The translations under genes were made by a program, and so were the position numbers. The notes beneath the pieces are model-generated. The model saw only the letters and a program-made list of their open reading frames with translations, was not told the DNA's origin and ran no database searches. Of a stretch of DNA of 62,542 nucleotides, positions 15,158-22,757 are shown one piece after another (within the stretch, counting starts at the first letter, position 1; each line of letters opens with the position of its first letter). The stretch covers positions 1-62,542 of the forward strand of contig SXXL01000086.1 in assembly GCA_005789565.1 (NCBI GenBank), in the 5' to 3' direction. Source of the stretch: Bacteroidota bacterium (GTDB taxonomy: Bacteria > Bacteroidota > Bacteroidia > Chitinophagales > Chitinophagaceae).

Positions 15158-16330
15158 ATGTTAACCGCCAGATTGCGTCGAAAAATATCTCCCCGGGTGC
15201 TCTTGGGTCATCCCTGGGTCTTTGCCAACGAATTGGAAACCGTCGAGGCTTCCGCCACCGATGGGGACGTGCTGCGGTTGATGACACATGACGGGAAGTT
15301 TGTGGGACAAGGGTATTACAACAGCCAATCCCAGATCCGGATCCGCCTGCTGACCCGGGATCCCAAAGCCACCATCGATGCCGCCTATTTTTTTGACCAG
15401 TTGGAGCGTTGTTGGTCCTACCGAAAAAAACTCGGCTATGTCGAGAATTGCCGCCTGGTTTTTGGTGAGGCGGACGGACTGCCTCAACTCATCATCGACA
15501 AATTCAATGATTATTTTGTTCTTCAGACCCTGGCCCTGGGGATCGATCGGTGGAAACCGGCTCTAGTGGAGGCCTTGGAAAAGATATTTCAACCGAAAGG
15601 CATCTACGAGCGGAACGATGTGCCGGTTCGAGGGTTGGAGGGATTGCCGCTTCAAAAAGGTTTTTTGTCTGCTCCCTTCGATACCCGAATACAGATCCGG
15701 GAAAATGGATTGTCCTTTCACGTTGATCTGGACCAGGGACAAAAGACCGGATATTTTCTCGACCAGCAGGACAACCGCCGGGCCATTCAGCACATCGTGC
15801 GCGAAGCGGAGGTGTTGGGGGCCTTCACCTATACCGGAACCTTTGAGGTGCATGCAGCGCACTACGGTGCCCGTTCGGTGCTCGGGTTGGATATCTCCGC
15901 GTCCGCCGTAGAAATGGCCAATGCCAACGCGGCCCTGAATGGATTATCGGATCGCTGTCGTTTCGAAGTGGCCAATGCCTTCGATGTGCTGAAATCCTGG
16001 GGCAAGGAAGGAAAGTCGTACGATGTGGTGATGTTGGATCCGCCGGCCTTCACCAAGAGCCGCGAAACCATCCAAAAAGCCATAACCGGATATAAGGAGA
16101 TCAACCTGCGGGGGATGAAGTTGGTACGGCCCGGTGGGTTTTTGGTCACCTCCTCTTGTACCAATTTGATCCAACCCGAACTGTTTTTGCAGATCATCGA
16201 GATGGCGGCAAAGGACGCGAGAAGAAAGATCCGACAGGTAACCTATCAAACGCAATCGGCCGATCATCCGATCGTTTGGGGACAGGAGAATACACAATAC
16301 TTGAAATTCCTGATCGTTCAGGTTCAATAA
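15158..16330 (+). CDS. class I SAM-dependent rRNA (cytosine-C5) methyltransferase, RlmI-like
   Basis: 390 residues. An N-terminal PUA domain ('LGHPWVFANELETVE', about 1-75), the EEHEE-type linker, then a Rossmann methyltransferase domain. Key motifs are 'GAFTYTGTFEVHAAHYGA' for SAM binding, 'YDVVMLDPPAFTKS' (DPPxF motif) and 'LVTSSCTNLI' with the catalytic-type Cys. E. coli RlmI makes m5C1962 in 23S rRNA; this homologue probably modifies rRNA, but the exact site is inferred. The start is fixed by a promoter box 12 bases upstream and by the family N-terminus 'RLRRKISPRVLLGHPW'. Confidence 0.92.
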   Translation: MLTARLRRKISPRVLLGHPWVFANELETVEASATDGDVLRLMTHDGKFVGQGYYNSQSQIRIRLLTRDPKATIDAAYFFDQLERCWSYRKKLGYVENCRLVFGEADGLPQLIIDKFNDYFVLQTLALGIDRWKPALVEALEKIFQPKGIYERNDVPVRGLEGLPLQKGFLSAPFDTRIQIRENGLSFHVDLDQGQKTGYFLDQQDNRRAIQHIVREAEVLGAFTYTGTFEVHAAHYGARSVLGLDISASAVEMANANAALNGLSDRCRFEVANAFDVLKSWGKEGKSYDVVMLDPPAFTKSRETIQKAITGYKEINLRGMKLVRPGGFLVTSSCTNLIQPELFLQIIEMAAKDARRKIRQVTYQTQSADHPIVWGQENTQYLKFLIVQVQ

Positions 16331-16355
16331 AAAAGGGGAGGTTACTTGGAAACCT
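16331..16355 (-). terminator. candidate terminator of the sorting-domain gene
   Basis: On the minus strand AGGTT (16355-16351), a 7-base loop, AACCT (16343-16339), four C and then a run of T. The hairpin overlaps the stop codon of the short gene above it. Short stem, so only a candidate. Confidence 0.35.
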
Positions 16356-16683
16356 GAAACGTGGCACCACCCAAGTACGTGCCATTGGCACTGAACATCC
16401 GAAACACATAAAGGCCGGGTACATAATCACTCACGTTCAATCGAAGTGTATAGGAAGTAATGGATGCAGCCACCATTTGTTTGCCTGTTACGCCGTTCAC
16501 CACCAAGATGCGGGCAGGACGGAGTTGCGGATTCCAATCCACCTGAACATAGCTAACGGCCGGGTTGGGATAGAGGCGAACCTTGGGCTGGTCCGTTCCG
16601 ATCAGGACGGGACGAGCCGTTTGTGCCGCCAAGTCAAAGCCCAGGGCAAAAAACAACAGGGTTATGAGGTATAACTTTCGCAA
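16342..16683 (-). CDS. small secreted protein consisting of a T9SS type A sorting domain
   Basis: 113 residues from a TTG start. A signal peptide ('MRKLYLITLLFFALGFDLAAQ') is followed after about 12 residues by a complete type A sorting domain: 'VRLYPNPAVSYVQVDW', 'RPARILVVNGVTGKQM', 'YTLRLNVSDYVPGLYVFRMF' and a final 'GGATFQVSK'. In normal cargo this domain sits at the end of a large enzyme or adhesin; here there is no cargo at all. No upstream in-frame ATG exists, and a TAGCTTTG box begins 13 bases before the TTG. It could be a remnant of a larger gene, but the intact signal peptide argues against that. Function unknown. Confidence 0.85.
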   Translation of the reverse strand: MRKLYLITLLFFALGFDLAAQTARPVLIGTDQPKVRLYPNPAVSYVQVDWNPQLRPARILVVNGVTGKQMVAASITSYTLRLNVSDYVPGLYVFRMFSANGTYLGGATFQVSK

Positions 16684-16688
16684 CGTTT

Positions 16689-16696
16689 CAAAGCTA
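16689..16696 (-). promoter_or_regulatory. -7 box of the stand-alone sorting-domain gene
   Basis: TAGCTTTG on the minus strand matches TAnnTTTG fully and begins 13 bases before the TTG start at 16683. This supports both the promoter and the unusual start codon. Confidence 0.55.
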
Positions 16697-16711
16697 AATT
16701 TATTTCCTCAT

Positions 16712-16744
16712 AAAAAAAATACCGGGGCCAGCGCCACCGGTATT
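16712..16744 (-). terminator. intrinsic terminator after the peroxiredoxin gene
   Basis: On the minus strand AATACCGG (16744-16737), an 11-base loop and CCGGTATT (16725-16718) form a perfect 8-bp stem followed by a run of T (16719-16712). It lies about 70 bases past the peroxiredoxin stop and directly upstream of the promoter of the next gene. Confidence 0.8.
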
Positions 16745-16817
16745 CTTGGTCAGGTTGAAGGACGACCTTTGATAATCAGCTTGTTATTGCCGGCCGATCA
16801 AAAAGTTTGAAGCTTTT

Positions 16818-17288
16818 TTAACAGCGGCTGTTCAAGGCTTCCTGGATCTTTTCGAAATCGGGCAGGTTCCCGGGATTGTCGAGCACTTCGGCGTATTGTA
16901 CGATCCCCTCGGCATCGATCACAAAGGCTGCTCGCTTGGAGACTCCTTTCATGTCCAGGATCCATTCTTCGTACAGGCTTCCGTATGTGCGAGAGACTTC
17001 TTTATTGAAATCGCTGAGTAGCGGGAAGTTCAAGTTCTGAGTTTCCTTGAATTTGGCCAGTGTAAACACCGAATCAACGGAGATGCCGAGCACGGTGGCG
17101 TTGATTTGTTCGTACTGAGCCATGTTATCCCGGGCCGTGCAAACTTGTTGCGTACAGACGCCGGTGAAGGATTGCGGGAAGAACATCAGCAGCACCTTTT
17201 TGCCGCGCAGTTCGTGGAGGGTGATTTTATTCTTATCCGAATCGTACAGCGAAAAATCAGGGGCAGTTTGCCCAACAGTGATAGCCAT
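16818..17288 (-). CDS. peroxiredoxin (AhpC/TSA family)
   Basis: 156 residues from ATG 17288 ('MAITVGQTAPDFSLYD'); the longer in-frame reading to 17462 runs into the PorP/SprF gene and was rejected. The thioredoxin-fold enzyme reduces peroxides. The peroxidatic Cys lies in FTGVCT and a second Cys five residues later (QQVC), a pattern seen in one-domain atypical peroxiredoxins of the Bcp/AhpE type. 'KKVLLMFFPQSF' precedes it and 'SRTYGSLYEEW' follows. It has its own promoter box 41 bases upstream and a strong terminator downstream, so it is probably monocistronic. Confidence 0.92.
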   Translation of the reverse strand: MAITVGQTAPDFSLYDSDKNKITLHELRGKKVLLMFFPQSFTGVCTQQVCTARDNMAQYEQINATVLGISVDSVFTLAKFKETQNLNFPLLSDFNKEVSRTYGSLYEEWILDMKGVSKRAAFVIDAEGIVQYAEVLDNPGNLPDFEKIQEALNSRC

Positions 17289-17340: not shown

Positions 17341-18351
17341 TTAGAATCGCGGGCAGCGGGCATCGGGTACCGATTCAGCCTTGTACCAGCGGTAAACCAA
17401 GCCCGCTTCGAATCCACCCCGTCCCTGGTTAAAGGGCGTGAGGCTGGAAACAGTGACGTCATAGCTGAACGAAGCTGAAACTGGGCCCATGTCGAGTTTG
17501 ATGACAGGAATGAAGGCCTCGTTCAATCGAAGAAAGGCGCCGGCTTGGATGGCATGCGTGGCATTTTCGGGATCGATCCCGAGGCGTAGTCCGTACAAGG
17601 CGCCCGCTACGGTTTGTTCAAAGCGGCCTTGACGGCTGTGGTCGGCCAGCACGGTGATGAAACCCTGTTCGGAAACACTCCATCTCATTCCCGCGGAGAT
17701 CACCCATTTGGCGTTCAATTCCACATTCGCGTTTCGGAAGTAAAAGGATTGCTGGGGTCGGTTGAAATGGTGATAGGCGAGTCCCACATAAAAATTATCG
17801 GTGGACCGATCGCGGATTTGAGAATTGTAACTGAGTCCCACGCTTCCATCGATGTATCCAAACGACGTATTCACCAGATTCTCGCCCGTACCACCGGTTT
17901 CATAGGTCGTATTGGTGGTCATTTTACTGGGATCAAATCGTCGTTGTACCCATCCGCCCATGGCACCCAGTGAGAGATATCGATTCTTGTCGGTGCTCAG
18001 CGATTTGTGATAATTGATCGCTGGCAGGAATTGAGTGGTCATCCACCCAATGGTTCCGGCCCGGTCAAAGAAACTTTGTAATCCCACGGTCAGGTAATCG
18101 TCGCCTGAACCGACCGCGATCTTATTTTCCAGGTTCAAGGAGCCGGTGCGATAGGCGTTCGTCAGATTGTTCCACTGGTCGCGGTAGATCGCTTGAACCC
18201 GGTAATCACCTTCAAAGAGTCCCGCCAGTGCGGGGTTACGCAGCAGCGGCGTCTCCCAAAATTGGGAGAAGTGTATGTCTTGCGCCCACAAGGGCAAACG
18301 AAATCCGAGCAGCCCGGCACAACAGATCGCTATGGCAAGAAATTTTTTCAT
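17341..18351 (-). CDS. PorP/SprF-family T9SS outer-membrane protein (second copy)
   Basis: 336 residues. Signal peptide ending at LWAQ, then the hallmark 'DIHFSQFWETPLLRNPALAGLF' region and 'YRVQAIYRDQWNN', followed by barrel strands and a short C-terminus with a Cys ('PDARCPRF'). It pairs with the giant PKD protein upstream: the ATG overlaps that gene's stop by 4 bases, exactly as in the pair at 988-5606. It is related to but clearly different in sequence from the first copy (345 residues), so the two pairs look like paralogues serving different cargo. Confidence 0.93.
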   Translation of the reverse strand: MKKFLAIAICCAGLLGFRLPLWAQDIHFSQFWETPLLRNPALAGLFEGDYRVQAIYRDQWNNLTNAYRTGSLNLENKIAVGSGDDYLTVGLQSFFDRAGTIGWMTTQFLPAINYHKSLSTDKNRYLSLGAMGGWVQRRFDPSKMTTNTTYETGGTGENLVNTSFGYIDGSVGLSYNSQIRDRSTDNFYVGLAYHHFNRPQQSFYFRNANVELNAKWVISAGMRWSVSEQGFITVLADHSRQGRFEQTVAGALYGLRLGIDPENATHAIQAGAFLRLNEAFIPVIKLDMGPVSASFSYDVTVSSLTPFNQGRGGFEAGLVYRWYKAESVPDARCPRF

Positions 18352-21300
18352 CGGATCAGCGAGATATTGCCGGTTAGGGTGAGTAGGGTGCCATTCTCAC
18401 AAAACACTTCTGCGGTGTAGATGTAGGTTTCGGCTTGAGGGGCTTGTCCCCGGTAGCGACCATCCCAGCCTTGGGAAGGATCGTTGGCGGGGAAGTTTTG
18501 TTTTTGGAATACGACCTGTCCCCACCGATTCACGATCTGGAAGGATTTGATCCGGTCCAATCCTCGTCCGCGTGGATAGTACACGTCATTACTGCCGTCT
18601 CCGTTCGGGGAGAACGTGTTGGGGAAGAATACGTTCGTCTGCTCGCAATACACCAGTGCCAGGATCTGGGCTTGGTTTCGGCAACCGTTGGCATCCTGCA
18701 CTTGTACCTGATACAGTCGGTCGTCTCGCGGGGCCACGGCAGGTCGGGGACACTGACTACAACTCAATCCGTCTGGCGGCGACCAAGACCACTGGTTCAC
18801 ATTGGGTGTATAGCTCACGGGCATGAACACCGGAAAACCATTTCGTACGGTCATTTGCACGGGCAGGTTGATGACCGGGAGCGGATCAATCCGAAGCGGA
18901 TGATTGACCGTGTCTTTGCAACCGCTGCTGTTGGTGGCGATCACGCGTATTTGAAAAGCACCGGCGGTATTGTAAGTCTGATTCGGGGGATTGATAGCCG
19001 ACGAACTGGCACCGTTGGGGAAATTCCATTGCCAGTTCACGACGGAGGTATCTGGCACGATAAAACTGCCTTGGTGTTGCAGGGTGCTGTTGATACAGGC
19101 TTGGGTGGCGCCGCTAACGCGGATGTGCGGCCGTTCCACGATTTTGATCAGATTGGGCTTGACCAGCGTATCCCGGCAACCGGCTTGGGTGGAGGTGATG
19201 AGTTGGACGGTATAATTTCCGGCTGCGGTGTACGGGTGCGTGGGATTGGCCAAGGTGGAAGTGCCTCCATCTCCGAATTGCCATAGATATTGAAGGGGGG
19301 CATTGTTGGTTATGGAAGAATCCCGGAATTGGATGCGCCCACCGTCGCAAAGGAAATTCAAGTCCGATCCAAATTCGGTTTCAACGCCTCGAATGCGGAT
19401 CCGACCGCCACCTACGATCGGGATGCGGCATCCGGCCGAATCTACCGCGATCACGGAGGGAAAGAAATCGCCCATCGTGGTGTAGGTATGCTGATAGGTA
19501 GCGGCATTGGTGACGGAGCTGCCGTCGCCGAGGTCCCAGAAATAACTGGCCATAGGACCGTTTGTCACCATCGATAAGGTGGCGGTGTAGGGGCGGCAGG
19601 CCGTCGCGGCGAGGTAGAACAAGCGGGTATTTGTTGTGTCAAAGACGCGCACGATCTGCACCGTAGTATCCTGGCAGCCACCCGGACTGGTGACGATCAA
19701 TTGTACCGGGAAGGAGTCGACCCGATTGAAGAAGTACACCGGATTGGTTTGGCTGGAAGGGCTTTCACCCGGACCAAAACTCCATTGACTCTGGTTAAAA
19801 TAAGTGGAGGTGTTGGTAAACTGCACGCGGAAAGGGGTGCAGGAACTGTTGGAGAAATCTTTGGTGAACACGGCGCGGGGCGTGTCGATGCGGATGTATT
19901 GGTTGCGTATCAATGAATCGGCACAACCATAGATATCGCGAACCACCAGTTTGACGTTGTATTGGCCTCCGTTTTGATAGCTATGCACAGGTTGTGCGGC
20001 CGACGATATGTTTCCGTCACCGAAAGTCCATTGATAGGTGAGTCCGCCCGGACTCGACCCGTTGCTGAACGATACATTGGCGCCCGGACAACTCAACGTA
20101 TCTGCACTGCTGAACGCCGGCAGTGGATCGGTTGAGTGAATCTGGTCGGTATTCGTGATGCTATCCTTACAGCCATAGGCATCGGTGATCACGAGTTTCA
20201 CGGCAAAATCACCCACGGTATTGTAGGTGTGCTGGAAAGGGCCAGGAGTGTATTGCTGTACGGCCCCGTCCCCAAAATGCCATTGCCATTGTGTGAGCGC
20301 ATGGTTGTTGTAGCTCGAGGATTGATCGAGGAAGGTGGTGGTGAATCCTTTGCAGCCCGACGTGTCGAGGGCGCGGAAGCGGGCAGTGGGACCATTCACT
20401 CGGATATAATTGGCTTGGATGGCGGTGTCTTTGCAGCCATTCAAATCGGTCGTTACCAGTTGTACACTGTACAACCCGTTATTGGTGTAGTTGGTCTGGA
20501 TCGAATCGATGGTGGTGTTGCCGGTGAGTCCGCCGCCAAAATCCCAGGCGTATTGATTGATCAGCGCGGTGTTGACCTGTGTGGCATAGAAGCGAACGGT
20601 ACCGATCTTACAGACCGTGGTTTGGTTGGCGGCAATCACGGGGATTTCATGGATCAATCGAATGTTTTTGGTGATCGTATCGGCACAGGTCCCGTTCTTG
20701 GCGATGAGTCGAACGGTGTAGGTGCCCAGCGCCGGGAATACGTGGGTGGGATTGGTAGCGGTAGCGGGGGGACTGCCATCGCCAAAATCCCACTCACTGC
20801 TGGTGGCATCAATGGATTGATTGGTGAAGCTGAAGGCAAGCCGATTCGTACAATTGGCCACGGGAGTAAAACGTGCAATGGCGGGGAGCACCCGCACAAA
20901 ATTGTTTTTGGTGATCGAACGTTCACAGCCATTGTTCAGGACGATCAGCCGCACGGTATAGAGTCCGGTATCACTGTATCGATGCGTGGGGTGTCGGGTG
21001 GTGGATCCGTTTCCGTCTCCAAAGGTCCAGATCCAGGTATCGACCGGAGGCGGGGTCAGGTCCGTGAACTGAACGGGTTGCGTACCACAGACGGGATTCG
21101 GCACTGCCGTGAAATTCGGGGCAGGAATGGTGCCTACTCGAATGGCGGCGTTTACCAGCAGCGTATCTCGGCAGCCGGTACTGGTGGTGATGATCAGCTG
21201 CACATTGTAGGTGCCTTGTGCCGTATACGTGTGCGAGGGCGTGGGTTGAATAGAAGTATTGCCGTCCCCAAAACTCCATTGGTAGGTCAGGATGTTGTCG

Positions 21301-22757
21301 AGCGCATTGATCGTGGCACTGAAGTTGTGGCTGTAGGGAACACAGTCCAGTACGGGCAAGCTGGGTATTTGGATCTGTGCTCGACGAATGATGATGTAAC
21401 CGGGCATCACCATCGTGTCTTTGCATCCGAATGCGCTCGTTACGATCAGTCGTACCGTAAAGGATCCGGCCGTGGTATAATTGTGCGAGGGATTTTGCAG
21501 CGTGGAGGTGTTGCCGTCACCGAAATTCCATTCCCAGGCGGTGAGATTTCCGGTCGACAGGTCCTGAAAATTCACCACCAGGTTGGGCGCACATTTGGTT
21601 CGCACCGGGGCCGTAAAGTTGGCGACGGGCTTCGGCCGAACGTTTACGATTCGGAAAGTAGAATCTTGGCAGGTGGAATACGTGTTGACGAGTTTAACGA
21701 GGTAAGTACCAACAGCGTTGTAGGTGTGGGTTGGGCTGGTGGTGGAGGAGCCGTTGCCATCTCCAAAACTCCATTGAGAGGAAACCGGTGCGGGAGTAGC
21801 AGTATTTGTGAAGGAGGCAGGGGAGCCGATGCACACATCATTGGGGGCATTGAAGTTGGTGGTGAAGCCACCAATGGTGATCGGGTTGCTTCGAATCGTA
21901 TCGACACAGCCCGCGCTGCTGGTGGCGACGAGGGTAACTGTGTAGGTTCCATTGGTGTTGAAGGTGTGTGTGGGGTTGGCCGCGGTGGAGGAAAAGCCAT
22001 CGCCAAAGTTCCAGGCATAACTGAGGGTTGGCGGACCCGTTGTGGTATTCGTAAATGTTATGGGAGCCGGGGCCGAGCATACGTTAGGTATGCCTGGGTT
22101 GAAGGAAGCATCCACGCCCGGGCTGACAGTTATGTAAGCAGTACGGGTAATGGTACGACTACATCCTTTATCATTGGTGACCCTCAGCGAGATGGTGTAG
22201 GTGCCCGACGTATTGTAGGTGATCCGGGGGTTTTGCTGAGTGGAGGTTTGTCCCCCGCCCAAATCCCAATTCCAAGTATTGTTGACTGTGCCGGCAGCGG
22301 CGGTGCTGGTATCGGTGAATTGTACCGTGAGCGGAAAACAGCCAGTGCGGATGTTGCTGCGAAAACCCACATTCGGGGTGCCGTAGGATATGATGTATTG
22401 GCTACGCGTGAGACTGTTGCTGCCACTGGCATTGGTCACGGTCAACTTAACGGTGTAATTCCCCGGGTTGAGATAGGTGGCAACCGGGTTGGCCAGCGTA
22501 GAGGTATTGCCGTTACCGAATTCCCACAAGTAGGCAGTCGGATTTCCGGTGGAAGTGTTTTGAAATTGGACGATCAGGGGGGCGCAGCCGGTGGTGAGGT
22601 TGGAGGTGAAATTAGCAACAGGTGCCTGCCCCCATAAAATCATCTTTAGGAAAATAAAGCTTAGGGATAAAACACCCCTGAAAAGGTCGGATTTAAAACG
22701 GCCTCTTATCCGTGAAAATTGCTTAGGAAGGATTCGGTTAAGGATCGATAAGACCAT
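18348..22757 (-). CDS. giant PKD-repeat T9SS cargo with gliding-type (type B) C-terminal domain
   Basis: 1469 residues. A long signal sequence (about 45 residues, basic n-region, ends 'LWGQA') is followed by about 15 tandem PKD-like domains of 80-90 residues, most with a W-x-FGDG or variant motif (FGNG, LGGG, FGGG, FGPG, FPNG). A spaced Cys recurs near the start of most repeats ('TGCAPL', 'TKCAPN', 'SGCKGF'). The last 90 residues ('TNVFFPNTFSPNGDGSNDVYY', 'IVNRWGQVVFQ', 'GNISLIR') are the type B sorting domain. Likely a surface adhesin or filament exported through T9SS with the coupled PorP/SprF protein. Ligand unknown. A lipoprotein gene ends 13 bp upstream on the same strand. Confidence 0.93.
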   Translation of the reverse strand: MVLSILNRILPKQFSRIRGRFKSDLFRGVLSLSFIFLKMILWGQAPVANFTSNLTTGCAPLIVQFQNTSTGNPTAYLWEFGNGNTSTLANPVATYLNPGNYTVKLTVTNASGSNSLTRSQYIISYGTPNVGFRSNIRTGCFPLTVQFTDTSTAAAGTVNNTWNWDLGGGQTSTQQNPRITYNTSGTYTISLRVTNDKGCSRTITRTAYITVSPGVDASFNPGIPNVCSAPAPITFTNTTTGPPTLSYAWNFGDGFSSTAANPTHTFNTNGTYTVTLVATSSAGCVDTIRSNPITIGGFTTNFNAPNDVCIGSPASFTNTATPAPVSSQWSFGDGNGSSTTSPTHTYNAVGTYLVKLVNTYSTCQDSTFRIVNVRPKPVANFTAPVRTKCAPNLVVNFQDLSTGNLTAWEWNFGDGNTSTLQNPSHNYTTAGSFTVRLIVTSAFGCKDTMVMPGYIIIRRAQIQIPSLPVLDCVPYSHNFSATINALDNILTYQWSFGDGNTSIQPTPSHTYTAQGTYNVQLIITTSTGCRDTLLVNAAIRVGTIPAPNFTAVPNPVCGTQPVQFTDLTPPPVDTWIWTFGDGNGSTTRHPTHRYSDTGLYTVRLIVLNNGCERSITKNNFVRVLPAIARFTPVANCTNRLAFSFTNQSIDATSSEWDFGDGSPPATATNPTHVFPALGTYTVRLIAKNGTCADTITKNIRLIHEIPVIAANQTTVCKIGTVRFYATQVNTALINQYAWDFGGGLTGNTTIDSIQTNYTNNGLYSVQLVTTDLNGCKDTAIQANYIRVNGPTARFRALDTSGCKGFTTTFLDQSSSYNNHALTQWQWHFGDGAVQQYTPGPFQHTYNTVGDFAVKLVITDAYGCKDSITNTDQIHSTDPLPAFSSADTLSCPGANVSFSNGSSPGGLTYQWTFGDGNISSAAQPVHSYQNGGQYNVKLVVRDIYGCADSLIRNQYIRIDTPRAVFTKDFSNSSCTPFRVQFTNTSTYFNQSQWSFGPGESPSSQTNPVYFFNRVDSFPVQLIVTSPGGCQDTTVQIVRVFDTTNTRLFYLAATACRPYTATLSMVTNGPMASYFWDLGDGSSVTNAATYQHTYTTMGDFFPSVIAVDSAGCRIPIVGGGRIRIRGVETEFGSDLNFLCDGGRIQFRDSSITNNAPLQYLWQFGDGGTSTLANPTHPYTAAGNYTVQLITSTQAGCRDTLVKPNLIKIVERPHIRVSGATQACINSTLQHQGSFIVPDTSVVNWQWNFPNGASSSAINPPNQTYNTAGAFQIRVIATNSSGCKDTVNHPLRIDPLPVINLPVQMTVRNGFPVFMPVSYTPNVNQWSWSPPDGLSCSQCPRPAVAPRDDRLYQVQVQDANGCRNQAQILALVYCEQTNVFFPNTFSPNGDGSNDVYYPRGRGLDRIKSFQIVNRWGQVVFQKQNFPANDPSQGWDGRYRGQAPQAETYIYTAEVFCENGTLLTLTGNISLIR

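Follow-up and report, generated by a model that had tools for sequence, protein, structure and literature searches.

A stand-alone type A sorting domain protein conserved in Chitinophagaceae and kept in genomes where canonical PorU is not found

The window analysed here covers positions 1 to 62,542 of contig SXXL01000086.1 (assembly GCA_005789565.1), a stretch of 62,542 nucleotides from a bacterium of the phylum Bacteroidota. On its minus strand, at 16342..16683, lies a gene that starts with TTG, ends with TAA and encodes 113 residues; its sequence and profile matches mark it as a stand-alone type A sorting domain of the type IX secretion system (T9SS), and we refer to it as mini-CTD, for C-terminal domain (CTD). 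It represents an orthologous family, nearly always with a single match per genome, of one Chitinophagaceae group, which evolves under purifying selection and is kept in genomes where PorU, the canonical sortase, was not found. The protein begins with a signal peptide (residues 1-20; 16624..16683), judged by eye from its RK, its hydrophobic core and a cleavage site between LAA and Q. A linker, defined by sequence and model (residues 21-34; 16582..16623), is the sole mature part outside the CTD, and these 14 residues leave no room for a cargo domain. The CTD itself (residues 35-113; 16345..16581; from profiles and model) is a seven-stranded immunoglobulin-like (Ig-like) beta-sandwich that ends at the last residue. 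A type A sorting domain usually forms the last ~70-90 residues of a larger protein, with a cargo domain between it and the signal peptide, whereas in mini-CTD it makes up almost the whole mature protein.

Residues 37-103 match TIGR04183 with 25.5 bits (cut-off 23) and PF18962 is matched with 28.3 bits (cut-off 27), while no other Pfam domain was found in the 113 residues. With both cut-offs passed, a seven-stranded beta-sandwich and a position at the extreme C-terminus, the domain resembles other T9SS type A sorting domains. The two scores are marginal for the window sequence alone and decisive for the family, whose profile reaches E-values of 4.4e-26 to 1.7e-47 in 177 genomes. An AlphaFold model built from 76 orthologues (alignment A1) has a mean pLDDT of 82.9 and a pTM of 0.60, and predicts a helix at residues 2-13 and seven strands across residues 35-111; it is less certain around residues 21-30. 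A Foldseek search with this model had no hits at E <= 0.001. On VIA re-alignment, the CTDs of mirolase (Z = 10.2), PorZ (Z = 10.1) and translocon-bound NucA (Z = 10.1) are close to the model, while those of RemA, FspA, RemZ and PorU (Z = 8.6-8.7) are level with fibronectin domains (Z = 8-9). The family profile also matches translocon-bound CTDs by sequence (8glj_D, E = 1.2e-10; 8glk_D, E = 6.7e-7). The predicted domain identity thus rests on the TIGR04183 and PF18962 profiles, helped by the VIA re-alignment. An earlier note, made from the letters of the window alone, had described a 113-residue protein composed of a signal peptide and a complete type A CTD without cargo, and the open reading frame, the two profiles and the seven-strand model agree with that description.

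Orthologues were drawn from 90 candidate loci (L001-L030 and L039-L098). Removal of L005, which has no start in its fragment, and L091, which is absent from the tblastn hits, left 88; alignment A1 omits a further 12 (long or uncertain N-termini and one near copy) and holds 76 sequences, with the window sequence replacing L001. A single-sequence search with mini-CTD gave matches in 94 of 97 related genomes and in 234 of 244 genomes of the family, which is Chitinophagaceae according to the titles of RlmI relatives, and part of these matches are the CTDs of long cargo proteins. The A1 orthologue profile separates the two kinds. At E <= 1e-14 it matched 195 of the 244 family genomes and left 49 unmatched; the best E-value lies within the strong range given above in 177 genomes and between 8.5e-15 and 2.0e-17 in 18, with none between. 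A strong orthologue is therefore present in 177 of 244 genomes and in 70 of 92 genera (82 matched genera minus 12 with weak matches only), and 173 of the 177 carriers have a single match at 1e-14. The strong matches among those listed are all stop-to-stop open frames of 108-186 residues, so that the check for orthologues of the same short length proposed in the earlier note came out in favour of a gene that is short in these relatives too. Among named records, 71 of 80 loci around RlmI contain mini-CTD, and the carriers include Niastella, Flavisolibacter, Flavihumibacter, Terrimonas, Lacibacter and Sediminibacterium magnilacihabitans. The nine RlmI loci without it, some of them incomplete, include two of Pinibacter, one of Sediminibacterium and that of Taibaiella soli. 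A search of the T9SS literature in open-licence PMC papers found no description of a CTD-only family in Chitinophagaceae.

The surroundings of the gene are conserved as well. In the window, an RlmI-like 23S rRNA methyltransferase (15158..16330, plus strand) is the convergent neighbour, and a peroxiredoxin of the AhpC-TSA type (16818..17288, minus strand) lies upstream on the same strand. RlmI is convergent downstream of mini-CTD within 400 nt in 30 of 30 loci of the genus, and 27 of the 30 have the peroxiredoxin upstream in the orientation of mini-CTD. For other genera, 60 loci were searched with the window proteins, one without a hit; of the remaining 59, 40 have RlmI convergent downstream, 39 have the peroxiredoxin upstream, 32 have both and 12 have neither detected, although some neighbours would lie beyond the locus ends. 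GrpE and PorP/SprF complete the gene order in many mini-CTD loci. A quick RlmI tree was also built from 70 rows with mini-CTD and 25 without (95 in all); 36 of its 92 inner branches are open, and L055, L169, L170 and L171, the last of these a distant second match in G171, are long rows. All 70 carriers fall inside one group of 73 rows (SH-aLRT = 99), and the presence of mini-CTD needs three changes on this tree, compared with 22.3 in shuffles. On this quick tree the distribution is that of a gene with apparently one origin, vertical inheritance and few losses.

The start and promoter point in the same direction. A -7 promoter box, TAGCTTTG (TAnnTTTG; 16689-16696, minus strand), lies 5 nt upstream of the TTG start. 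The assigned starts of the 88 orthologues are 43 TTG, 41 ATG and 4 GTG, under a scoring rule that favours ATG, and TAnnTTTG occurs exactly 5 nt before the start in 44 of them (35 of 43 TTG, 8 of 41 ATG and 1 of 4 GTG). In shuffled upstream DNA the motif at 4-7 nt occurs 0.47 times on average and five times at most, in shuffles that ignore kinship. Since the box keeps the same distance from ATG and TTG, it is good evidence for both the start and a very short leader. Passages of PMC9723704 give -12 to -5 as the position of this box in Flavobacterium psychrophilum, by which the mini-CTD +1 would be one base before the TTG; the box implies, as a prediction, an almost leaderless message. The same passages put leaderless mRNAs at 5.5% of the mapped ones in that species, and passages of PMC6847099 describe the transcripts of F. 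johnsoniae as mostly leadered. A sigma-70 promoter scan returned a single site, on the opposite strand, with a model that does not cover Bacteroidota promoters. A strong terminator-like hairpin with a T run (16708..16750, minus strand; -20.4 kcal/mol, z = -4.59) lies behind the peroxiredoxin gene and upstream of the mini-CTD promoter; it sets the mini-CTD gene apart and fits a promoter of its own. The TTG start and near-leaderless promoter claimed beforehand thus hold, and the claim of the gene's own terminator-like hairpin is not supported: the stem on its 3' side is weak (5 bp, -3.5 kcal/mol, z = -0.32) and a terminator search behind the gene found none.

Purifying selection on mini-CTD is evident from the ratio of non-synonymous to synonymous change (dN/dS, Nei-Gojobori): of 45 listed pairs, 29 have a finite dS and give values from 0.028 to 0.13, several of them close to saturation, while 16 pairs are fully saturated for synonymous change. 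The corresponding ratio of proportions (pN/pS) over 12 pairs is 0.086 for the CTD, 0.234 for the linker and 0.36 for the signal peptide, and being lowest in the CTD it indicates that selection sits on this domain. Across 15 genomes that have both mini-CTD and PorU (105 pairs) the median identity of mini-CTD is 0.556, compared with 0.529 for the PorU CTD and 0.583 for the PorU body, and mini-CTD is more conserved than the PorU CTD in 50 of the 105 pairs.

Several T9SS components were surveyed in the same genomes. Of 46 genomes tested, 41 have SprA, all 14 mini-CTD carriers in the set included, and the five genomes without SprA (G102, G190, G242, G284 and G316, of one genus) are also without mini-CTD. 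RlmI was sought in three of these five, without a match at 1e-60. The window genome has 16 TIGR04183 matches at E <= 0.001 and 18 PF18962 matches at E <= 10, mini-CTD being one of many CTDs. Canonical PorU, defined as a match to NF033707 over the 420-bit cut-off, is present in 17 of 30 genomes of the genus (as fragments in G004 and G007) and in G302; the window's own genome has it (L195). It was not found in 13 of the 30 (G029, G033, G022, G010, G006, G016, G003, G025, G012, G034, G015, G035 and G039), where any relative that turned up is distant, larger and under the cut-off; in six (G033, G010, G003, G025, G012 and G039) nothing PorU-like matched at 1e-20. All 13 possess mini-CTD, SprA and PorV-family matches, three of them belonging also to the 14 carriers mentioned above.

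The porV loci were read in 11 of these 13 genomes (those other than G022 and G039). Ten have a GldJ-like gene adjoining porV with no PorU between, and the eleventh (G012) begins at a contig edge; in the control genomes G000 and G037 PorU adjoins porV. The loci in which porU is missing between these two genes (L242-L247, L249-L251 and L253) come from nine small-genome congeners and G035. Only the G025 locus was scanned against family models (TIGR03524 GldJ, 399 bits, below the cut-off of 458; NF033710 PorV, 434 bits, cut-off 250; and PF19572 PorV), and the remaining loci were likened to it by eye. G006, G016 and G012 are less than 90% complete and others are in many contigs, so that single absences of PorU are unsure and the clean loci are the stronger evidence. 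From their gene content, these congeners appear to have a T9SS without a canonical sortase. Among the PorU-less genomes the dN/dS of mini-CTD is still about 0.04-0.11 (0.088 for L009-L012, 0.042 for L007-L008 and 0.057 for L022-L028). Because the gene is kept under purifying selection without PorU, its role cannot depend on PorU there, and it follows that the predicted mini-CTD would be uncleaved where PorU is absent, unless another protease acts. We also noted a second PorU-like protein of about 1700 residues (L200-L211 and others), which stands beside a PorV-like gene in several genomes (for example G000:C76) and is present even in the SprA-less G102 and G190.

Carriage by PorV was considered through a single residue. 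According to passages of PMC10994853, the sole CTD side chain that contacts PorV in all structures is a near-invariant lysine towards the C-terminus, Lys1110 of RemZ, which corresponds to position 108 of mini-CTD by the end points of the aligned range in VIA, if that range is ungapped. The 76 orthologues have lysine at this position in 69 cases, arginine in three and threonine in four. The small genomes without PorU keep the lysine, their C-termini reading GKFQVTK or GKFQVSK and in one case GKFLITK (L026).

We tentatively favour the reading that mini-CTD is a dedicated, vertically inherited CTD-only protein whose product is the uncleaved CTD fold itself, exported by SprA and PorV, with a role at the surface or on PorV. 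In this scheme the protein would leave the cytoplasm through Sec, the CTD would fold, and PorV would take it through SprA like any type A CTD. It would stay uncleaved, and the folded domain would be the functional product, working at the surface of the cell and most probably on PorV or beside it. In such a case mini-CTD would be an accessory of the secretion machine and not a label for cargo. Retention of the CTD in the mature protein, proposed here for mini-CTD, is known for PorU and PorZ, which keep uncleaved CTDs (passages of PMC7712824 and PMC10202324); the difference is that both are large proteins, and that PorU itself was not found in 13 mini-CTD genomes.

A number of observations weigh against this reading. 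The gene is dispensable, as 67 of the 244 family genomes are without a strong match, and 27 of 32 tested genomes of that kind have SprA, indicating that a T9SS can do without mini-CTD. G302, which keeps SprA, still has GrpE, RlmI and the peroxiredoxin in their usual order, and mini-CTD is gone from between RlmI and the peroxiredoxin. (At the other 24 of the 25 non-carrier RlmI loci, the GrpE and peroxiredoxin of the window were not found in the 1500-nt flanks, and three of these loci have a nearby CTD in a longer open frame.) Since the PorU-less genomes retain other CTD proteins, with 8-21 TIGR04183 matches in each of the eleven small genomes, doing without PorU is not special to mini-CTD. The top four rows of the VIA re-alignment are the Ig-like domain of a Flavobacterium endodextranase (Z = 10.2-10.6), and because this domain and fibronectin domains score comparably to T9SS CTDs, the fold alone proves little. 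The window sequence has threonine in place of the PorV-contact lysine, as do its three nearest relatives (L002-L004); the domain family being defined by profile, this weakens PorV carriage more than domain membership. The window mini-CTD is also unusually diverged, with identities of 0.30-0.37 to ten distant congeners, compared with 0.45-0.53 for the PorU CTD. Moreover, passages of PMC7712824 describe Fjoh_0547 of Flavobacterium johnsoniae, a CTD protein of similar size (112 residues, compared with 113) and likewise without room for cargo, as secreted in sprA and porV mutants.

The most serious rival makes mini-CTD a small Ig-like protein, secreted or periplasmic, in which the CTD fold is reused and export does not need the T9SS, as reported for Fjoh_0547; we consider this somewhat unlikely. 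The threonine at position 108 in the window and its nearest relatives fits this explanation, and so does the fact that presence of the gene does not follow SprA one to one. It is opposed by the lysine or arginine at that position in 72 of 76 orthologues and by the presence of SprA in all carriers tested (14 of 14 and 13 of 13). The absence of the gene from the five SprA-less genomes may argue the same way.

Mini-CTD might otherwise be a dummy substrate or regulator that occupies PorV or the SprA pore, tuning export or reporting the state of the T9SS in a signalling role like that of PorA. A complete CTD, one match per genome and conservation like that of the PorU CTD would suit such a role. 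According to the same passages of PMC7712824, PorA of Porphyromonas gingivalis, which has 246 residues and a FimH-like domain on its N-terminal side, carries a CTD and feeds into T9SS signalling; like mini-CTD, it is a small CTD protein that does not serve to deliver an enzyme. Mini-CTD has no PorA-like sensor domain, however, and SprA-bearing genomes without the gene exist, so that we regard this explanation as distinctly unlikely. Identity with PorA itself was considered and rejected, as mini-CTD has no N-terminal FimH-like domain and only 113 residues in all.

A further explanation takes mini-CTD as minimal cargo: the linker peptide would act as the effector, with the CTD delivering it and PorU cutting it off or attaching it. 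The distance from the Q of the cleavage site to YPNP is 14-19 residues in 42 of the 47 orthologues with a clear site of the AxA-Q type (the 41 of 88 without such a site were not counted), mature position 4 is arginine in 21 of the 47, and the linker pN/pS still shows constraint. That constraint is nevertheless weaker than in the CTD, and canonical PorU was not found in 13 carriers of the genus, six of them without any PorU-like match at the threshold given above, which makes this explanation quite improbable. There is hardly any chance that mini-CTD is a drifting remnant of a deleted cargo gene: its short length is all that would favour this, and the 177 strong-match genomes, with short frames in those listed, together with synteny, a dN/dS far below 1 and a conserved promoter and start, speak against it.

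A truncated cargo gene or pseudogene is in fact ruled out by the orthologue profile counts, dN/dS and synteny. The statement in the earlier note that this is a working gene and not the tail of a deleted one is accordingly upheld, as the comparison of synonymous and non-synonymous change that it called for fell clearly on the side of constraint. Among the carriers whose locus was read, none showed a longer homologue there, and the possibility that all orthologues are full-length cargo proteins is contradicted. Its suggestion that the protein primes or competes for the sortase or attachment step is disfavoured by the persistence of the gene where PorU was not found; competition for PorV itself may still occur. 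In a bolder reading, mini-CTD could be a dedicated dummy substrate, an uncleaved, cargo-free CTD sitting on PorV or in the SprA pore as a working part of the machine that sets its idle or loaded state without the sortase; we hold this to be unlikely.

If this bolder reading is right, a new class of T9SS component would lie among the proteins annotated as sorting domain-containing, with analogous stand-alone CTDs in other families. The NCBIfam name 'T9SS type A sorting domain-containing protein' gets read as cargo, and the conservation of a protein made of the tag alone suggests a function for this fold in its own right. Survival without canonical PorU sets the carrier step (SprA-PorV) apart from that of the sortase and makes the role testable, and cultured carriers are at hand, Niastella, Flavisolibacter, Flavihumibacter, Terrimonas and Lacibacter among them.

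Stand-alone CTDs are also found outside the family. In 392 genomes of the phylum the profile matches outside the family are mostly long cargo proteins, with some stand-alone frames of 113-148 residues in other families. Stand-alone CTDs of about 105-140 residues occupy conserved loci in two other groups (L127-L129, L132, L133, L135 and L137-L141; L130, L131, L134 and L143). The eleven loci of one group contain a LuxE-like gene in 10 cases, a TonB receptor in nine and a conserved protein without Pfam domains in nine, while the four loci of the second follow an NAD(P)H-hydrate repair gene; the neighbour family names for both groups come from one locus each. Stand-alone CTDs elsewhere score 44-61 bits with the profile (one second copy 37), no better than long cargo CTDs, and common descent of stand-alone CTDs across families therefore lacks support. 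Five stand-alone loci of 112 residues differ from mini-CTD in their LuxE-like and TonB receptor neighbours and score 44-48 bits (one second copy 37), and the orthology of Fjoh_0547 to them could not be confirmed.

Other features of the window deserve a brief mention. TAnnTTTG also occurs 4-6 nt before the start of a few other open reading frames, RlmI (15158) included, which suggests that further near-leaderless transcripts may be made from this stretch. Next upstream of the peroxiredoxin, here and in part of the relatives, is a gene for a T9SS membrane protein of the PorP/SprF family (17341..18351, minus strand). It is overlapped by 4 nt by a gene for a 1469-residue PKD-repeat protein with a type B CTD, the two together spanning 17341-22757, and they likely form a cargo-carrier pair.
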